44,809 nt of DNA, taken from the NCBI GenBank assembly GCA_020848455.1, contig JADLAB010000118.1, positions 1 to 44,809 of the forward strand. Reading direction: 5' to 3'. Positions 31,655-43,784 of this stretch are shown piece by piece; position 1 is the first letter of the stretch, and each line of letters starts with the position of its first letter. A program made the translations under genes and the position numbers. The DNA is from Polyangiaceae bacterium (GTDB taxonomy: Bacteria; Myxococcota_A; Polyangia; Polyangiales; Polyangiaceae). Under the pieces are notes generated by a model. The model saw nothing but the letters and a program-made list of their open reading frames with translations, was not told where the DNA came from and searched no databases.

Positions 31655-31757
31655 GCGGAGCGCCGGGAACAGCGCCACGGCGCCCCGGCCACAGGACACG
31701 ACGATGGCGCGCGCCGCCCCACGGGGCCTGCGCGCGGCCCGGCAAGACGAGGAACCA

Positions 31758-33791
31758 ATGCAGCTTCGCGCGGAAGAGATCTCGCAGATCATCAAGAAGC
31801 AGATCCAGAACATCCAGGCCGCCCCGAGCGTGGACGAGACCGGGACCGTTCTGACCGTCGGCGACGGCATCGCGCGCGTGCACGGCCTGCGCCTGGTGCA
31901 GGCGGGCGAGCTGGTGGAGTTCGTGGTCGGCGGGGGTCACCCGAACGTCTTCGGCCTGGTCCTCAACCTCGAGCAGGACAACGTCGGCTGCGCCCTGTTC
32001 GGCGAGTCGTCGGCCATCCGCGAGGGCGGGCTGTGCCGGCGCACCGGCCGCATCATGGAGGTGCCGGTCGGCGAGGCGGTCGTCGGTCGCGTGGTCAACG
32101 CGCTCGGCCAGCCGATCGACGGCAAGGGCCCGATCGAGACGAAGGACCGCGGCCGCGTCGAGCTCAAGGCGCCGGGCATCGTGCAGCGCCAGCCGGTCAC
32201 CGAGCCGCTGCAGACCGGCATCAAGGCCATCGACGGCATGATCCCGATCGGCCGCGGGCAGCGCGAGCTCATCATCGGCGACCGCCAGACCGGCAAGACC
32301 GCGGTCGCGGTCGACACCATCATCAACCAGAAGGGCAAGGGCGTCTTCTGCATCTACGTCGCCATCGGCCAGAAGCTCTCGACGGTGCGGCAGGTCGTCG
32401 ACAAGCTCGAGCAGCACGGCGCGATGGAGTACACGATCGTCGTCGCGGCGAGCGCGAGCGAGATGGCGCCCCTGCAGTTCATCGCGCCGTACACCGGCGT
32501 CACGATGGGCGAGTACTTCCGCGACACCGGCCGCCACGCGCTCTGCATCTACGACGACCTGTCGAAGCAGGCGGTCGCCTACCGGCAGCTGTCCCTGCTC
32601 CTGCGGCGCCCGCCGGGGCGCGAGGCCTTCCCGGGCGACGTCTTCTACCTCCACAGCCGCCTGCTCGAGCGCGCCGCGAAGATGGCGGAGCGCTTCTTCG
32701 TGGTCGACAAGGACACCGCCCTGCCGGCCGGCGACACGGCGTTCCGCGGCGTCGACGGCAAGGTGCACGCCGGTGCTCACGGCCGCGCCGAGGCGACGGC
32801 CTCGGCCTACGCGCTCGTCGACGCGGCGCTCGCGGCCGAGTGGGCGAAGGCAGCCAAGCCCGAGAAGGACAAGCTCGGCCGCGCGCTCGAGGACAAGCTC
32901 GCGGCCTCGCGCTACGCGATCAAGCGCGACGCGCACTCGGGCGGCTCGCTCACGGCCCTGCCGATCATCGAGACGCAGGCCGGCGACGTGTCGGCCTACA
33001 TCCCGACCAACGTCATCAGCATCACCGACGGGCAGATCTTCCTCGAGAGCGACCTCTTTTACTCGGGCGTGCGCCCCGCCATCAACGTCGGCATCTCGGT
33101 GAGTCGCGTCGGCGGCAACGCTCAGATCAAGGCCATGAAGCAGGTGGCCGGCCGCCTGCGCCTCGAGCTGGCGCAGTACCGCGAGATGGCCGCCTTTGCC
33201 CAGTTCGCGAGCGACCTCGACCAGAAGACGCGCGCGCAGCTCGAGCGCGGCGCGCGCCTGGTCGAGATCCTGAAGCAGGGCCAGTACGTGCCGCAGCCCG
33301 TCGAGAAGCAGGTGCTGATGGTCTTCGCGGCCACCAACGGCTTCATCGACGACCTGCCCATCGACGCCCTGCGCCGCTACGAAGAGGAGCTCTACCGCTT
33401 CGTCGACGCGAAGTTCCCGAAGGTGCTGAAGGACATCGCCGACAAGAAGGTGATCACGCCCGAGCACTGGGACGACAAGACGCGCACGGGCGAGCTCAAG
33501 AACGTGCTCGACGCCTTCCGCAAGACCTTCACCCTCGAGGCCGAGGAGCCGGCCGCGGTGCCGGGCAAGGCCAAGCCGAAGCCCGCCGCCGCGCCCGCCC
33601 GGACGGCGAAGCCTGCGGCCGACGAGGACCTCGACGAGGACGACGAGCTCGAGGACGAAGACGACGAGGACGAGGACGAGGACGACGAGGACGACGACGA
33701 GCAGGAGCCGCCGCAGAAGGCGGCCCCCGCGAAGGGCAAGCCCGCCGCGCCGGCGGGTCCCAAGAGCAAGCCGGGCAAGGGCAAGGCCTAG
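31758..33791 (+). CDS. atpA: F-type ATP synthase subunit alpha with internal insertion and acidic C-terminal tail
   Basis: A 677-residue protein; the family norm is about 505-515. The core is complete: Walker A GDRQTGKT (174-181), the catalytic-site region and [12 protein letters not shown] (297-308), and [26 protein letters not shown]. Between residues of about 309 and 394, where normal alpha has some 15 residues before SLTALP, there are about 85, giving an insertion of around 70 rich in Ala, Lys and Asp. After the usual end (about 592) comes an 80-residue tail: Pro/Lys/Ala, then an almost pure Asp/Glu run (622-650), then Lys/Pro/Ala. The start ATG 31758 follows AGGAACC and gives the standard [12 protein letters not shown]; the ATG at 31704 adds 18 Arg-rich residues and was rejected. 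Confidence 0.93.
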
Positions 33792-40173: not shown

Positions 40174-41097
40174 GTGCTCCGCATCGCGCACGTGTCGGAT
40201 CTGCACGTCCTGTCGCCCCACGGCGTCGAGTGGCGGCAGATGCTGTTCAACAAGCGCCTCACCGGCTACGCGAACCTCGTCCGGCAGCGCGGTCGCGTGT
40301 ACCGCCGCGCCTACCTCGCGGCCGTGCTCGCGGCGGCGGCGGCGCGGGCCGACCACCTCGTCGTGACGGGCGATATCACGAACCTCTCGCTCGAGCGGGA
40401 GTTCGAGGAGGCGCGCGCGCTGCTCGACGGCGCGGCGCGGACGGTCGAGGTGACGGTCGTGCCGGGGAACCACGACGTCTACCTGCCGCACATCCACGAG
40501 GCGCGGCGCTTCGCCCACCACTTCGGACCCTTCCTGAGGAGCGATCTGCCCGCGCTCGCGTGCGCCCTCCGCGCCGGCCCCTTCCCCTGCGTGAAGCTGC
40601 GCGGGCCCGCCGCGATCATCGCCCTGTCGAGCGCGGTGCCGCGACCACCGTTCATCGCGAGCGATCTCGTCGGCGACGCCGAGCTCGCGGCGCTCGAGGC
40701 GGTGCTCGCCCACCCCGAGGTCGCCCGGCGCACGCCGGTCGTGCTCATCCACCACCCGCCGGTCGACGACCGCCTCAGGCTCTTGCAGCTGCGCGACGGG
40801 CTCGTCGACGCCGCGCGCCTCTGCCGGGTGCTCGCGCCGCTCGCGCGCGGCCTCGTGCTCTTCGGGCACCTGCACCTGCGCGTGCGCCGCCGCCTCCGAA
40901 CCGACGCGGGCTGGCTCGACGCCATCGGCGCGAGCGGCGCCGCGCTCGATCACCCCGCCCCCGCGGTGCGGGCTGGGTTCAACGCCTACACCATCGCCGA
41001 CGACGGGAGCCTCGCCTCGGCCGAGGCGCACGTCCTCTCACCCGACGGACGCACCTTCGAGCGGATGCCGCTCCGCGCGAGCCCGAGCGGCGCATGA
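40174..41097 (+). CDS. Calcineurin-like metallophosphoesterase (CpdA/3',5'-cNMP-like branch)
   Basis: A 307-residue protein starting at GTG 40174, 10 nt after a strong GGAGGAG. Motifs: HVSDLHV (Asp9, His11), TGDITN (Asp67, Asn70), PGNHD (Asn99, His100), IHHPPV and FGHLH. The SDLH/GDITN/GNHD pattern resembles class III cyclic-nucleotide phosphodiesterases, but activity on other phosphoesters is possible. An in-frame ATG at 39904 was rejected because the extension is antisense to the dioxygenase gene and lacks family character. Its stop overlaps the next start (ATGA), implying co-expression with the phospholipase D fusion protein. Confidence 0.88.
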   Translation: MLRIAHVSDLHVLSPHGVEWRQMLFNKRLTGYANLVRQRGRVYRRAYLAAVLAAAAARADHLVVTGDITNLSLEREFEEARALLDGAARTVEVTVVPGNHDVYLPHIHEARRFAHHFGPFLRSDLPALACALRAGPFPCVKLRGPAAIIALSSAVPRPPFIASDLVGDAELAALEAVLAHPEVARRTPVVLIHHPPVDDRLRLLQLRDGLVDAARLCRVLAPLARGLVLFGHLHLRVRRRLRTDAGWLDAIGASGAALDHPAPAVRAGFNAYTIADDGSLASAEAHVLSPDGRTFERMPLRASPSGA

Positions 41098-43784
41098 GGT
41101 ACCGCCGGGTGCTGCTCGTGGCCGAGCTCGGCTCGGATCCGGGCGCGGCGCTCGCCGCCGCGCGCGGCCTCGCGCCCGAGGCCGAGCGGCTCGTCGTCGT
41201 GGCCTGCCCCCCCGCCCAGCCGTCCTCGTGGTGGTCGGGCGCGAGCCCGCCCGAGCCGCCCGAGCCGGCGAGCCCGTGGCTCGACCGCCTCCGCGACGCC
41301 GCGGCTCGCGTCGCGCCCGAGACCGAGGTCGGGCTCGTGCCGGCGCTCGACGCCGAGTCCCTCGGAGACGTCGTCGCCGCCTCGGGCGTCGAGCTCGTCG
41401 TCGCCGGTCCGGTGCCGCTCGCCGCCATCCCCGTCCTCGCGGAGCTGCGCAAGCGCCGTCCGGTGGCGGTGCTCTGGGTCCCCACGACCCACGCGCCCGA
41501 GGCCCGGCGGCCCGTCCGCGAGCTGTTCTGCGTCGCGCTCGGGGAGCGCGCGCAGGTCTCGGTGGCGCGCTTCCTGCGCGATCACGGCGACCCCGCGATG
41601 CACGCCACGATCTTCGCGTTCGCGCTGCCGTCGGGCATCGAGCTCACCTCGGCGCTGGAGGTCGCGGGCATCCGCGCGTCGGTGGAGCTCGCCGGGGCGG
41701 GCGTGCCGGCGCCGTGGCGCGCGCTCGACGAGCTGGCGCGCCTGCGCTCGGTCGATCTCGTCGTGCTCGCGCGCTACCCGGGCTCGCTCCTGCGGAGCGT
41801 GCCCGGCTCGACGCCCATCCTGGTCCTGCCGCCGCTCGTGCCAGGCAGACCCGCGATCGAGCGCCCGCTCGACGTGGCCGACCTCGTGGACGACGGCGGC
41901 GTCGTGCGCGTGCGTGTCGAGCACGCCTTCGGCGTGGGCCGCAATCCGCCCATCGCCGACCAGGAGATCGCCTTCGTGCACGAGGGGCGGGTGGCAGCGC
42001 TCGTGACGACGCACGGCGGCGAGGCCGAGCTCCCGCCCGGGCTCGGCGCCGAGTCGCTCGGGCTGTTCCGCGTCCGCGATCGCGCCTCCGAGGATCCGGT
42101 CGCCGCGATCGAGCGCTGGGTGACGATCGTCCGCCCCGGGCCGAGGCCGCTCGTGCTCTTCGACGTGGACCTGCCCGACGCCGAGCTGCCGGCGCTCGCG
42201 GCCGTCGACGGCGCGGAGCTGCTCGCCGTCCGCCTGCGCCCCTCGCGGAGCTGCCACCTCTTGCGCGACCGGCTGCGGGCGGCCGGGCTCGCGGCGCGCG
42301 TCGTCGACGCGCGCGCCGTGCTCGACGAGGGCGACGCGGCCGACGTGAGCGAGTCCATCGACGCCGTGCGGCTGGCGCGGGTCGCTACGCGCCTGCTGCG
42401 CACGGGCTTCCCGGTCGCCGCGATCGTCCACCACGGCCCGCGCGCGCCCGCGGCCGTGGGCTTCGTGGCGCTCTCGGCGGCCGAGCTCGCGGGCCGCACG
42501 TGGGAGCGGCCGACCCCGGCGCCGCGGCCGAGCTCGCTCGGCGCGCGGCTCGACGCCACGACCGGCGCCGCTCGGCTCGACGGCCATCGCGTGGAGCTCG
42601 AGCTCGACAACGCGACGGCGCGGCGCTGGCTCCTCGGCGCCATCGAGGGCGCAGCGCAGCGCCTGCACCTTCAGAGCTACATGGCCACGGACGACGACCT
42701 CGGTCGCCGGGTGGAGACCGCCCTCCGGGAGGCCGCGCGGCGCGGGGTCGCCGTGCGCGTGCTCGTCGACTCGCTCCACGGTCTGCACGGGTCCTTCGGG
42801 ATGCGCAACCCGCTGCTCGAGCGGCTGGCGGCGTGCCCCGGCGTCGAGCTCCGCGTGTCGCGGCCGCTCGCGGGGGTGCCCTCGCTCGAGGATCTGAAGC
42901 AGCGGGATCACGGCAAGCTCGTGGTGGCCGACGGCCGGCTGGCGCTGCTCGGCGGCCGCAACCTCGCCGCCGAGTACTACACGGGCTTCGACGAGGTGAA
43001 CGTCGTGCCGAGCACCCCGTGGCGCGACGTGCCGTGGCTCGACGCCGGGGCGCGCCTCCTCGGGCCGGCCGTCGCCACGCTGGAGCGCTCCTTCCTCGAG
43101 GCCTGGACCGGCGCGGGCGGCGCCCCCTTCGAGGTGGTGGAGCAGCCGCCGGCCGGTACGACGCCGGCCCGCGTCGTGGTCCATCGCGGGCTCTGCGACG
43201 CCGGCACGCTCGAGGCGTACCTCGCGCTCATCGAGACGGCCCGCACGCACGTCGTGGCGGTGAGCGGCTTCCCGCTGCTGCTCGAGATCCAGCACGCGCT
43301 GCTGCGCGCGCTCGCGCGCGGCGTCCGCGTGCGCACGCTCTTCGGCCGCGCCACGCCCACCCACGGCGGCGAGCCCTTCGAGGGTCAGTGGGCGACGGCG
43401 CGCACCGCCGCGACCTGGCTCGTCCACTCCCGCATGGACGCGCTCGTCGCGGCGGGGGCCGAGGGCTTCGAGCTCGCGGTGCGCGACGTGCCGGGGTGGG
43501 CTCCGGACCTCGGCCTCGTGCACCCGCACGTCCACGCCAAGATCATGAGCGTCGACGGTCGCGTGTGCGCCATCGGCAGCGCCAACCTGGACGTCACCGC
43601 GAGCTACTGGGAGAGCGAGCTCCTGCTCCTCGTCGAGGACGAGGCCGTCGCCGGAGCGCTCGAGGCACGGATCGACGCCTTCTGCGCCGGCTCCGTCCGC
43701 GTGGACCGCGAGGATCCCGCCTGGCAGCGGCTCGCCCGCCGGCGGGAGTGGTTGCGGCACTGGCCCGGCGTGCTGTCGGTCTGA
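41094..43784 (+). CDS. Fusion protein: stress-protein-like N-terminal domains and phospholipase D/cardiolipin synthase-like C-terminal half
   Basis: An 896-residue protein. Residues 1-250 look like two Rossmann-type universal-stress-protein units (RRVLLVAELGSDPGAALAAARGLAPEAERLVVVA at the start; VRELFCVALG near 141 and VDLVVLARYPGSLLRSVPGSTPILVL near 219-246). A middle section of about 250 residues is unrecognised. The last 400 hold two PLD motifs, HGKLVVAD with GGRN (606-613, 620-623) and HAKIMSVD with GSAN (814-821, 828-831). Two HKD motifs form one active site in cardiolipin synthases and other phosphatidyl transferases. The protein has no clear membrane helices. It overlaps the metallophosphoesterase gene by 4 nt. 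Confidence 0.85.
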   Translation: MRYRRVLLVAELGSDPGAALAAARGLAPEAERLVVVACPPAQPSSWWSGASPPEPPEPASPWLDRLRDAAARVAPETEVGLVPALDAESLGDVVAASGVELVVAGPVPLAAIPVLAELRKRRPVAVLWVPTTHAPEARRPVRELFCVALGERAQVSVARFLRDHGDPAMHATIFAFALPSGIELTSALEVAGIRASVELAGAGVPAPWRALDELARLRSVDLVVLARYPGSLLRSVPGSTPILVLPPLVPGRPAIERPLDVADLVDDGGVVRVRVEHAFGVGRNPPIADQEIAFVHEGRVAALVTTHGGEAELPPGLGAESLGLFRVRDRASEDPVAAIERWVTIVRPGPRPLVLFDVDLPDAELPALAAVDGAELLAVRLRPSRSCHLLRDRLRAAGLAARVVDARAVLDEGDAADVSESIDAVRLARVATRLLRTGFPVAAIVHHGPRAPAAVGFVALSAAELAGRTWERPTPAPRPSSLGARLDATTGAARLDGHRVELELDNATARRWLLGAIEGAAQRLHLQSYMATDDDLGRRVETALREAARRGVAVRVLVDSLHGLHGSFGMRNPLLERLAACPGVELRVSRPLAGVPSLEDLKQRDHGKLVVADGRLALLGGRNLAAEYYTGFDEVNVVPSTPWRDVPWLDAGARLLGPAVATLERSFLEAWTGAGGAPFEVVEQPPAGTTPARVVVHRGLCDAGTLEAYLALIETARTHVVAVSGFPLLLEIQHALLRALARGVRVRTLFGRATPTHGGEPFEGQWATARTAATWLVHSRMDALVAAGAEGFELAVRDVPGWAPDLGLVHPHVHAKIMSVDGRVCAIGSANLDVTASYWESELLLLVEDEAVAGALEARIDAFCAGSVRVDREDPAWQRLARRREWLRHWPGVLSV

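Follow-up and report, generated by a model that had tools for sequence, protein, structure and literature searches.

Several described systems resemble parts of the protein considered here. Bacterial cardiolipin synthases (Cls), such as those of TIGR04265 and ClsB (PRK11263), have two HKD motifs in each chain. Tandem universal stress proteins (USPs), including 3loq, Rv2623, and UspE, are built from two USP units, and PMC4750201 describes UspE as holding, in a hydrophobic pocket, a ligand that is unidentified but probably related to lipid A. In lipin and Pah phosphatases an Ig-like domain precedes a HAD-like one (PMC7066176), and the LNS2 domains of Nir proteins are presented in PMC12419160 as lacking catalytic residues yet binding phosphatidic acid (PA). 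The gene described here lies in a stretch of 44,809 nucleotides from a Polyangiaceae bacterium (assembly GCA_020848455.1, contig JADLAB010000118.1, positions 1-44,809, forward strand), and this whole stretch is referred to below as the window. The encoded protein joins a two-HKD phospholipase D (PLD) domain to a tandem USP-like head and to a middle region with a predicted lipin/LNS2-like fold, and the gene is usually accompanied by one for a calcineurin-like phosphoesterase, here called the partner.

This fusion is a new architecture inside known superfamilies. A literature search, covering mainly titles and the openings of abstracts, with few subscription papers and no bioRxiv, found no published description of a bacterial USP-PLD or lipin/LNS2-PLD protein, and we know of no Cls that bears USP or lipin-like modules. 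The features of the locus are as follows.

40174-41097, plus strand: partner gene, calcineurin-like metallophosphoesterase; GTG start, four-base overlap (ATGA) with the fusion gene.
41094-43784, plus strand: fusion gene; ATG at 41094, stop codon ending at 43784, 896 amino acids.
41094-41495, plus strand: predicted USP-like unit 1 (residues 1-134); beta and alpha elements that alternate in the model and a tandem USP match over residues 1-251.
41505-41843, plus strand: predicted USP-like unit 2 (residues 138-250); model and tandem USP match, with F160, L161, R162, D163, and H164 invariant in 8 of 8 aligned proteins.
41865-42134, plus strand: predicted Ig-like beta sandwich (residues 258-347) forming the first half of the lipin/LNS2-like module; strands in the stand-alone model (its residues 2-89).
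42141-42509, plus strand: predicted HAD-like alpha/beta part (residues 350-472), the other half of the lipin/LNS2-like module; stand-alone model and structural matches.
42546-43781, plus strand: two-HKD phospholipase D/cardiolipin-synthase-like domain (residues 485-896); Pfam PLDc_2.
42903-42962, plus strand: HKD motif 1, H606-x-K608-x4-D613 and then GGRN; H, K, and D invariant in 8 of 8.
43527-43586, plus strand: HKD motif 2, H814-x-K816-x4-D821 and then GSAN; H, K, and D invariant in 8 of 8.

The most telling part of the fusion is, in our judgement, its middle. This region was called unrecognised in a preliminary description of the DNA, and for sequence families that holds: Pfam gives no match there at E ≤ 1, LNS2 included. 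The middle was modelled separately because the VIA list of structural matches to the full model covered mainly residues 1-250 and 691-870. Folded alone from eight rows, residues 258-484 gave a pLDDT of 82 and a pTM of 0.82, and Foldseek placed first the C-terminal LNS2 domain of Nir2 solved with PA (E 1.2e-5) and second another Nir2 entry (7.4e-5), with the first unrelated row at 8.8e-4. In VIA the Nir2 structures scored Z 11.9-12.1 and the lipin/Pah phosphatases Z 10.2-10.6, with the next unrelated fold at 7.0 or below. The stand-alone model thus has the two-part Ig-like plus HAD-like lipin/LNS2 fold, at 10-13% identity to the Nir2 and lipin structures, from which the middle also differs in being bacterial and joined to a PLD. 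Two other candidate folds were rejected, namely TrkA (Foldseek E 8.8e-4 and weaker, rmsd 17-18) and dehydrogenases (E 0.003 and weaker, over about 100 columns only, or over more at high rmsd).

Sequence profiles provide a second line of evidence, which runs through relatives of the fusion that have a PLD domain and no USP-like head. In hhalign the middle, as a profile of 15 rows, matches the N-terminal parts of 24 such USP-less proteins over 188 columns (E 9e-11), and the same N-terminal parts match 15 bacterial proteins with Pfam LNS2 domains (E 1e-6, 98 columns). Controls comprised two reversed alignments, 15 column shuffles for each of two pairs, and unrelated alignments; all gave E values of at least 0.07, except that the middle and the N-terminal alignment matched each other over 21 columns at the boundary they share. 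When the lipin-like region of the USP-less relatives was compared as a profile with sequences in the PDB, two designed TIM barrels were all that matched (E 0.94 and 4). Alignments in which MAFFT combined the middle and these relatives were left out of the folding; in our judgement they misplace the first HAD strand.

The DxDxT motif of this fold is broken. Among 12 rows (L008 is gapped at the motif) the first D is present in all, the third position is D in two, E in nine, and A in one, and the T is found in none; the window protein keeps D-x-D and lacks the T. In the stand-alone model the first Asp, D357, stands at the end of the first HAD strand. Many other residues of the middle are invariant in 8 of 8 proteins, for example R391, R393, D405, E412, G413, D417, R426, R429, and R433. 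Loss of catalytic residues is shared with the Nir LNS2 domains, which nevertheless bind PA, and by this analogy the broken motif suggests that the middle is a lipid-binding pseudo-phosphatase. A bifunctional enzyme, in which the lipin-like half is an active phosphatidate phosphatase and the single chain carries PLD products on to diacylglycerol, could draw on the first Asp, which persists in the 12 rows and in three divergent ones, and on the D-x-D of the window protein. It is nevertheless very unlikely, given the missing T and the E or A at the third position in ten of the rows; the three divergent rows have R, R, and G there, though one (L030) has the T, and in some USP-less relatives even the first Asp is gone (N in L010, H in L014). 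Lipin relatives with the motif kept do occur in the same class: of 144 class genomes 55 have Pfam LNS2 domains (44 above the cut-off), against 0 of the 14 genomes used as controls, and the 15 bacterial LNS2 proteins that were read (L088-L102) all have DxDGT.

Residues 1-250 form two alternating beta/alpha units in the full-chain model, and residues 1-251 are matched best in VIA by the tandem USP 3loq (Z 16.5, rmsd 4.1, 237 residues); other tandem USPs include Rv2623 (Z 14.3) and UspE (Z 13.7), the range being Z about 13-16.5. Structure prediction therefore gives the N-terminal half a USP alpha/beta fold in tandem, in line with the resemblance that had been proposed and contrary to the one result that had been named as refuting it, while the nucleotide binding proposed along with it is unsupported because the motif G-2x-G-9x-G(S/T) was found in 0 of 13 fusion proteins, whether the pattern was applied strictly or loosely (the head is incomplete in L001 and L002, and L008 is only a fragment). 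In this, and in being joined to an enzyme, the head differs from the known tandem USPs. The tandem claim rests on the fold, since comparison of unit 1 with unit 2 as an internal repeat gave only E 0.012 (probability 3.7). C-terminal domains of cation-chloride cotransporters likewise match the region (VIA Z 11.4-14.0), which we read as a fold in common. Pfam Usp has no match in the window protein at E ≤ 1; it matches two of the eight aligned fusion proteins (best E 7e-4) and, weakly, one of eight further proteins (L055, E 0.13), two of which have no head. A profile of the eight aligned fusion proteins found no USP or lipin chain among 14 rows of PDB sequences up to E 1, PLDs being best at 3.9e-6. 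The USP-like half is rare: of 377 genomes from the phylum, 4 have a site at E ≤ 1e-15. Three of these sites are the fused gene (G000, G020, G014), and the remaining genome, G745, is probably that of L008, since the open frame has 705 amino acids in both.

The C-terminal half is a two-HKD member of the phospholipase D superfamily, and it is the only part that Pfam recognises (PLDc_2, 82.2 bits against a cut-off of 27, along with the HKD motif). Both HKD motifs, reported as intact in the preliminary description, are invariant in the eight aligned proteins. The best NCBIfam score of this half is for cardiolipin synthase TIGR04265, although its 75.1 bits (61.2 in the genome search) lie far under the cut-off of 290; ClsB follows a similar pattern (66 bits, cut-off 281). 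Elsewhere in the host genome a single further gene matches the Cls model; it is canonical and over the cut-off at 369.8 bits (C86:8564-9925), so the fusion protein is probably not the housekeeping Cls. It could instead be an ordinary accessory cardiolipin synthase isozyme whose USP-like and lipin-like parts are ligand-free modules for scaffolding or dimerisation. We consider this rather unlikely: the Cls-like character of the PLD half and the loss of both the USP nucleotide motif and the phosphatase motif speak for it, while the joint retention of the modules in three phyla and in relatives only about 51% identical, and the many invariant residues of the middle, such as R391 and R433, speak against it.

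The PLD half also scores 74.7 bits with DrmC in NCBIfam (cut-off 133), and DrmC is the best PADLOC match of the fusion (56.7 bits; PADLOC is used without cut-offs). A pair of nucleases for defence, consisting of a PLD nuclease of the DrmC kind and a phosphoesterase nuclease, would also take in a weak match of the partner to DS9_1_antiphage (32 bits, NCBIfam) and one to PDC-S10 of PADLOC (24 bits). Such a pair is quite improbable, because the NCBIfam scores fall far under the cut-offs (133 and 420 bits), the Cls score about equals that for DrmC, no DISARM-like partner was found by Pfam among nine other genes of the window (PADLOC covered four proteins), and the predicted fold of the middle is that of a lipid domain. 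As an annotation, a defence system including DISARM was rejected, all NCBIfam matches being below cut-off.

The partner gene is matched by Pfam Metallophos (E 6.4e-11, 43.5 bits, cut-off 21.5). Its residues D8, H10, D66, N98, H192, H193, H231, and H233, which we take to be the metal ligands, show no variation in 12 of 12 rows, of which nine belong to the close type and three to a broader one; the partner is a calcineurin-like phosphoesterase with intact metal-ligand motifs. In the sample of 289 class genomes, relatives at 1e-30 occur in 201, and most of these 201 do not carry the fusion. Close copies behave differently: those with at least 380 bits are found in 5 of the 289 genomes, the next best score being 280, and the fusion directly adjoins in all five. 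The close partner is present in 10 of 13 genomes with the fusion (61-92% identity to the window copy among eight aligned) and lies directly upstream of the fusion gene in eight (G000, G019, G309, G310, G313, G020, G030, G297). In Anaeromyxobacter sp. PSR-1 it faces the start of the fusion gene across a contig end, and in a Thiobacillus metagenome-assembled genome (MAG) it is about 1.2 kb downstream on the other strand, past a gene for a class 3 lipase. Both this accompanying gene and the lipin/LNS2-like fold of the middle had been missed in the preliminary description. A comparable arrangement is found in PMC12419801, where a phosphoesterase gene adjoins that of a phospholipid head-group exchanger; there, calcineurin-like phosphoesterases sit next to Wok enzymes, which are proposed cardiolipin synthases, whereas the HKD synthase pairs with a synaptojanin-like phosphatase. 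Its section on these neighbours names no USP or lipin-like modules, and the terms 'universal stress' and 'lipin' do not occur in its main text.

Profile searches relate the partner to the solved structures of lmo2642 (the best, at 5e-8), Rv0805/Icc-type enzymes (6e-5 and weaker), and a phosphohydrolase (4e-4). Rv0805 and Icc cleave cyclic nucleotides. This raises the alternative of a cyclic-nucleotide circuit, in which the signal would be cAMP or a cyclic dinucleotide, read by the USP head and erased by the partner acting as a class III cyclic nucleotide phosphodiesterase. USP folds can bind such ligands, since structures titled as cAMP-bound (5ahw) and c-di-AMP-bound (7ji4) are in the structural match list. 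Even so, we regard the circuit as improbable: the nucleotide motif was found in none of the 13 heads (three of them in partial rows), and the broader phosphoesterase family is mostly found in genomes of the class that have no fusion.

The open reading frame of the fusion, first proposed from the sequence alone, is a real gene, because the relatives L001-L007 are 51-91% identical to its product (two of these rows are partial). Compared with L001 over codons 50-896 (847 codons), the window gene differs at 48, 37, and 111 sites in codon positions 1, 2, and 3, and 774 residues are identical. L001, the closest relative (91% identity, from a groundwater MAG), has a frame break early in the fusion gene, inside roughly the first 40 codons (L001:5252-5360), which may be an assembly error or real. 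The search for homologues gave 15 loci, comprising eight of the long form (L001-L008), six that match little beyond the PLD half (L009-L014), and one weak PLD (L015, 26%).

The complete USP-lipin-like-PLD layout recurs in 13 genomes of three phyla (G000, G019, G020, G014, G030, G297, and the seven behind L002-L008, G308-G314, of which that of L007 was also met as G298), in addition to divergent relatives. The sampled class is taken to be Polyangia from named loci such as L007, which is of the order of the window, and 44 of its 289 genomes match at 1e-60: six have the fusion, four have divergent or cut relatives, and 21 have no match to the USP head, the remaining 13 lying outside that comparison. 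The N-terminal halves of the divergent relatives in G263 and G289 match the USP-head profile (E 1.3e-9 and 1.7e-5), and the relatives in G302 and G291 are cut by contig ends. Within the family of the window 6 of 108 genomes match at 1e-40, one of them (G015) being of the USP-less type, and in the Luteimonas family 1 of 198 does so at 1e-60. The USP-less lipin-like-PLD family itself (L009-L014, L022, L031-L050) recurs in the class, with open frames mostly of about 720-830 amino acids. Its members share with the fusion the lipin-like module and the PLD domain (37-44% identity for L009-L014); they differ in having no USP-head match and no partner-type phosphoesterase in their flanks (up to 6 kb for L009-L014 and about 1.5 kb for the rest).

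In a tree of PLD domains the window, G019, and Anaeromyxobacter PSR-1 group together (95/96), and the three other fusion carriers of the family of the window group elsewhere (99/99), with L007 (Sandaracinaceae) and G297. Copies from Pseudomonadota and Acidobacteriota lie within the same group of 13 (99/99). These groupings fit spread by horizontal transfer. A plasmid origin was rejected, as tblastn with the fusion protein as query found nothing at 1e-10 in 72,556 plasmid records.

We tentatively favour, at somewhat less than even confidence, a PLD-superfamily enzyme that works at the membrane surface and is regulated by its lipin/LNS2-like and tandem USP-like modules, and a phosphoesterase that acts on the lipid pool which this enzyme uses. 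The protein has no likely membrane span, the highest 19-residue hydropathy being 1.84, inside USP unit 1, and it would be a soluble enzyme at the membrane surface, most likely a cardiolipin synthase/phosphatidyltransferase or a phospholipase D, controlled by the two N-terminal modules of the same chain. The pseudo-phosphatase would bind an anionic phospholipid head group, with PA the first candidate, and this binding could dock the enzyme on the membrane and tune it by its own product or substrate. The USP-like head might hold a small or lipidic ligand, or dimerise under stress, and so gate the enzyme. The phosphoesterase may remove phosphate or head groups, for example, upstream or downstream of the PLD step. 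Here the lipid substrate, the lipid binding, the gating by stress, and the substrate of the partner are what we infer, beside an observed domain layout (in part from predicted structure), intact HKD sites, a broken DxDxT, an absent USP nucleotide motif, and the pairing of the genes.

Several results weigh against this proposal. Direct comparison of the middle with the 15 bacterial LNS2 proteins is not significant (hhalign E 0.34), so the link to lipins is made by predicted structure together with the two-step sequence chain. Neither USP nor LNS2 is called in the window protein by Pfam or NCBIfam. Lipins have an N-terminal amphipathic helix, and the model has no helix of at least four residues between residues 217 and 258. 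The full-length model from the eight-row alignment (pLDDT 65, pTM 0.35) is too weak to give domain contacts. The partner was not found in three of the 13 fusion genomes, Luteimonas G312 and UBA9160 G314 (at 1e-10) and G014 (at 1e-30), and is therefore not obligatory. The coupling of a sensor to a membrane-lipid enzyme, which the preliminary description had thought possible, agrees with a sensor-plus-enzyme layout kept across phyla; the observation itself is confirmed, and that earlier interpretation is partly supported.

In our judgement, little is known of how bacterial PLD-type lipid enzymes are regulated by sensor domains in their own chain. A lipin/LNS2-like fold on a bacterial PLD would be a prokaryotic precedent for coupling the recognition of PA to its production. 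A bolder version, which we think doubtful, is a self-contained phospholipid signalling unit in which the PLD makes PA or an exchanged phospholipid, the pseudo-phosphatase reads it, the USP head sets a threshold during stress, and the phosphoesterase terminates the signal. If this is true, prokaryotes would possess a mobile equivalent of the eukaryotic PLD-PA-Nir2 axis packed into two genes. Anaeromyxobacter sp. PSR-1 carries the two-gene cassette in a record that is not marked as a MAG, and the cassette may thus be testable in a cultured strain.

Some further observations concern the surroundings of these genes. A paralogue of the partner (L054, G000:C207:19113-19973) is 53% identical to it and falls in the family found in 201 of the 289 class genomes, which is usually single copy. 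In the Thiobacillus MAG (L005:27-13893) the fusion gene lies amid genes for two P-type cation ATPases, the class 3 lipase, the phosphoesterase, and a DUF308 protein, and a DUF308 gene is near the fusion in Luteimonas (L006) as well. Elsewhere in the window, positions 31704-33791 encode an ATP synthase alpha/beta-type subunit of 695 amino acids, above the usual length, which extends about 100 residues past its C-terminal domain match.

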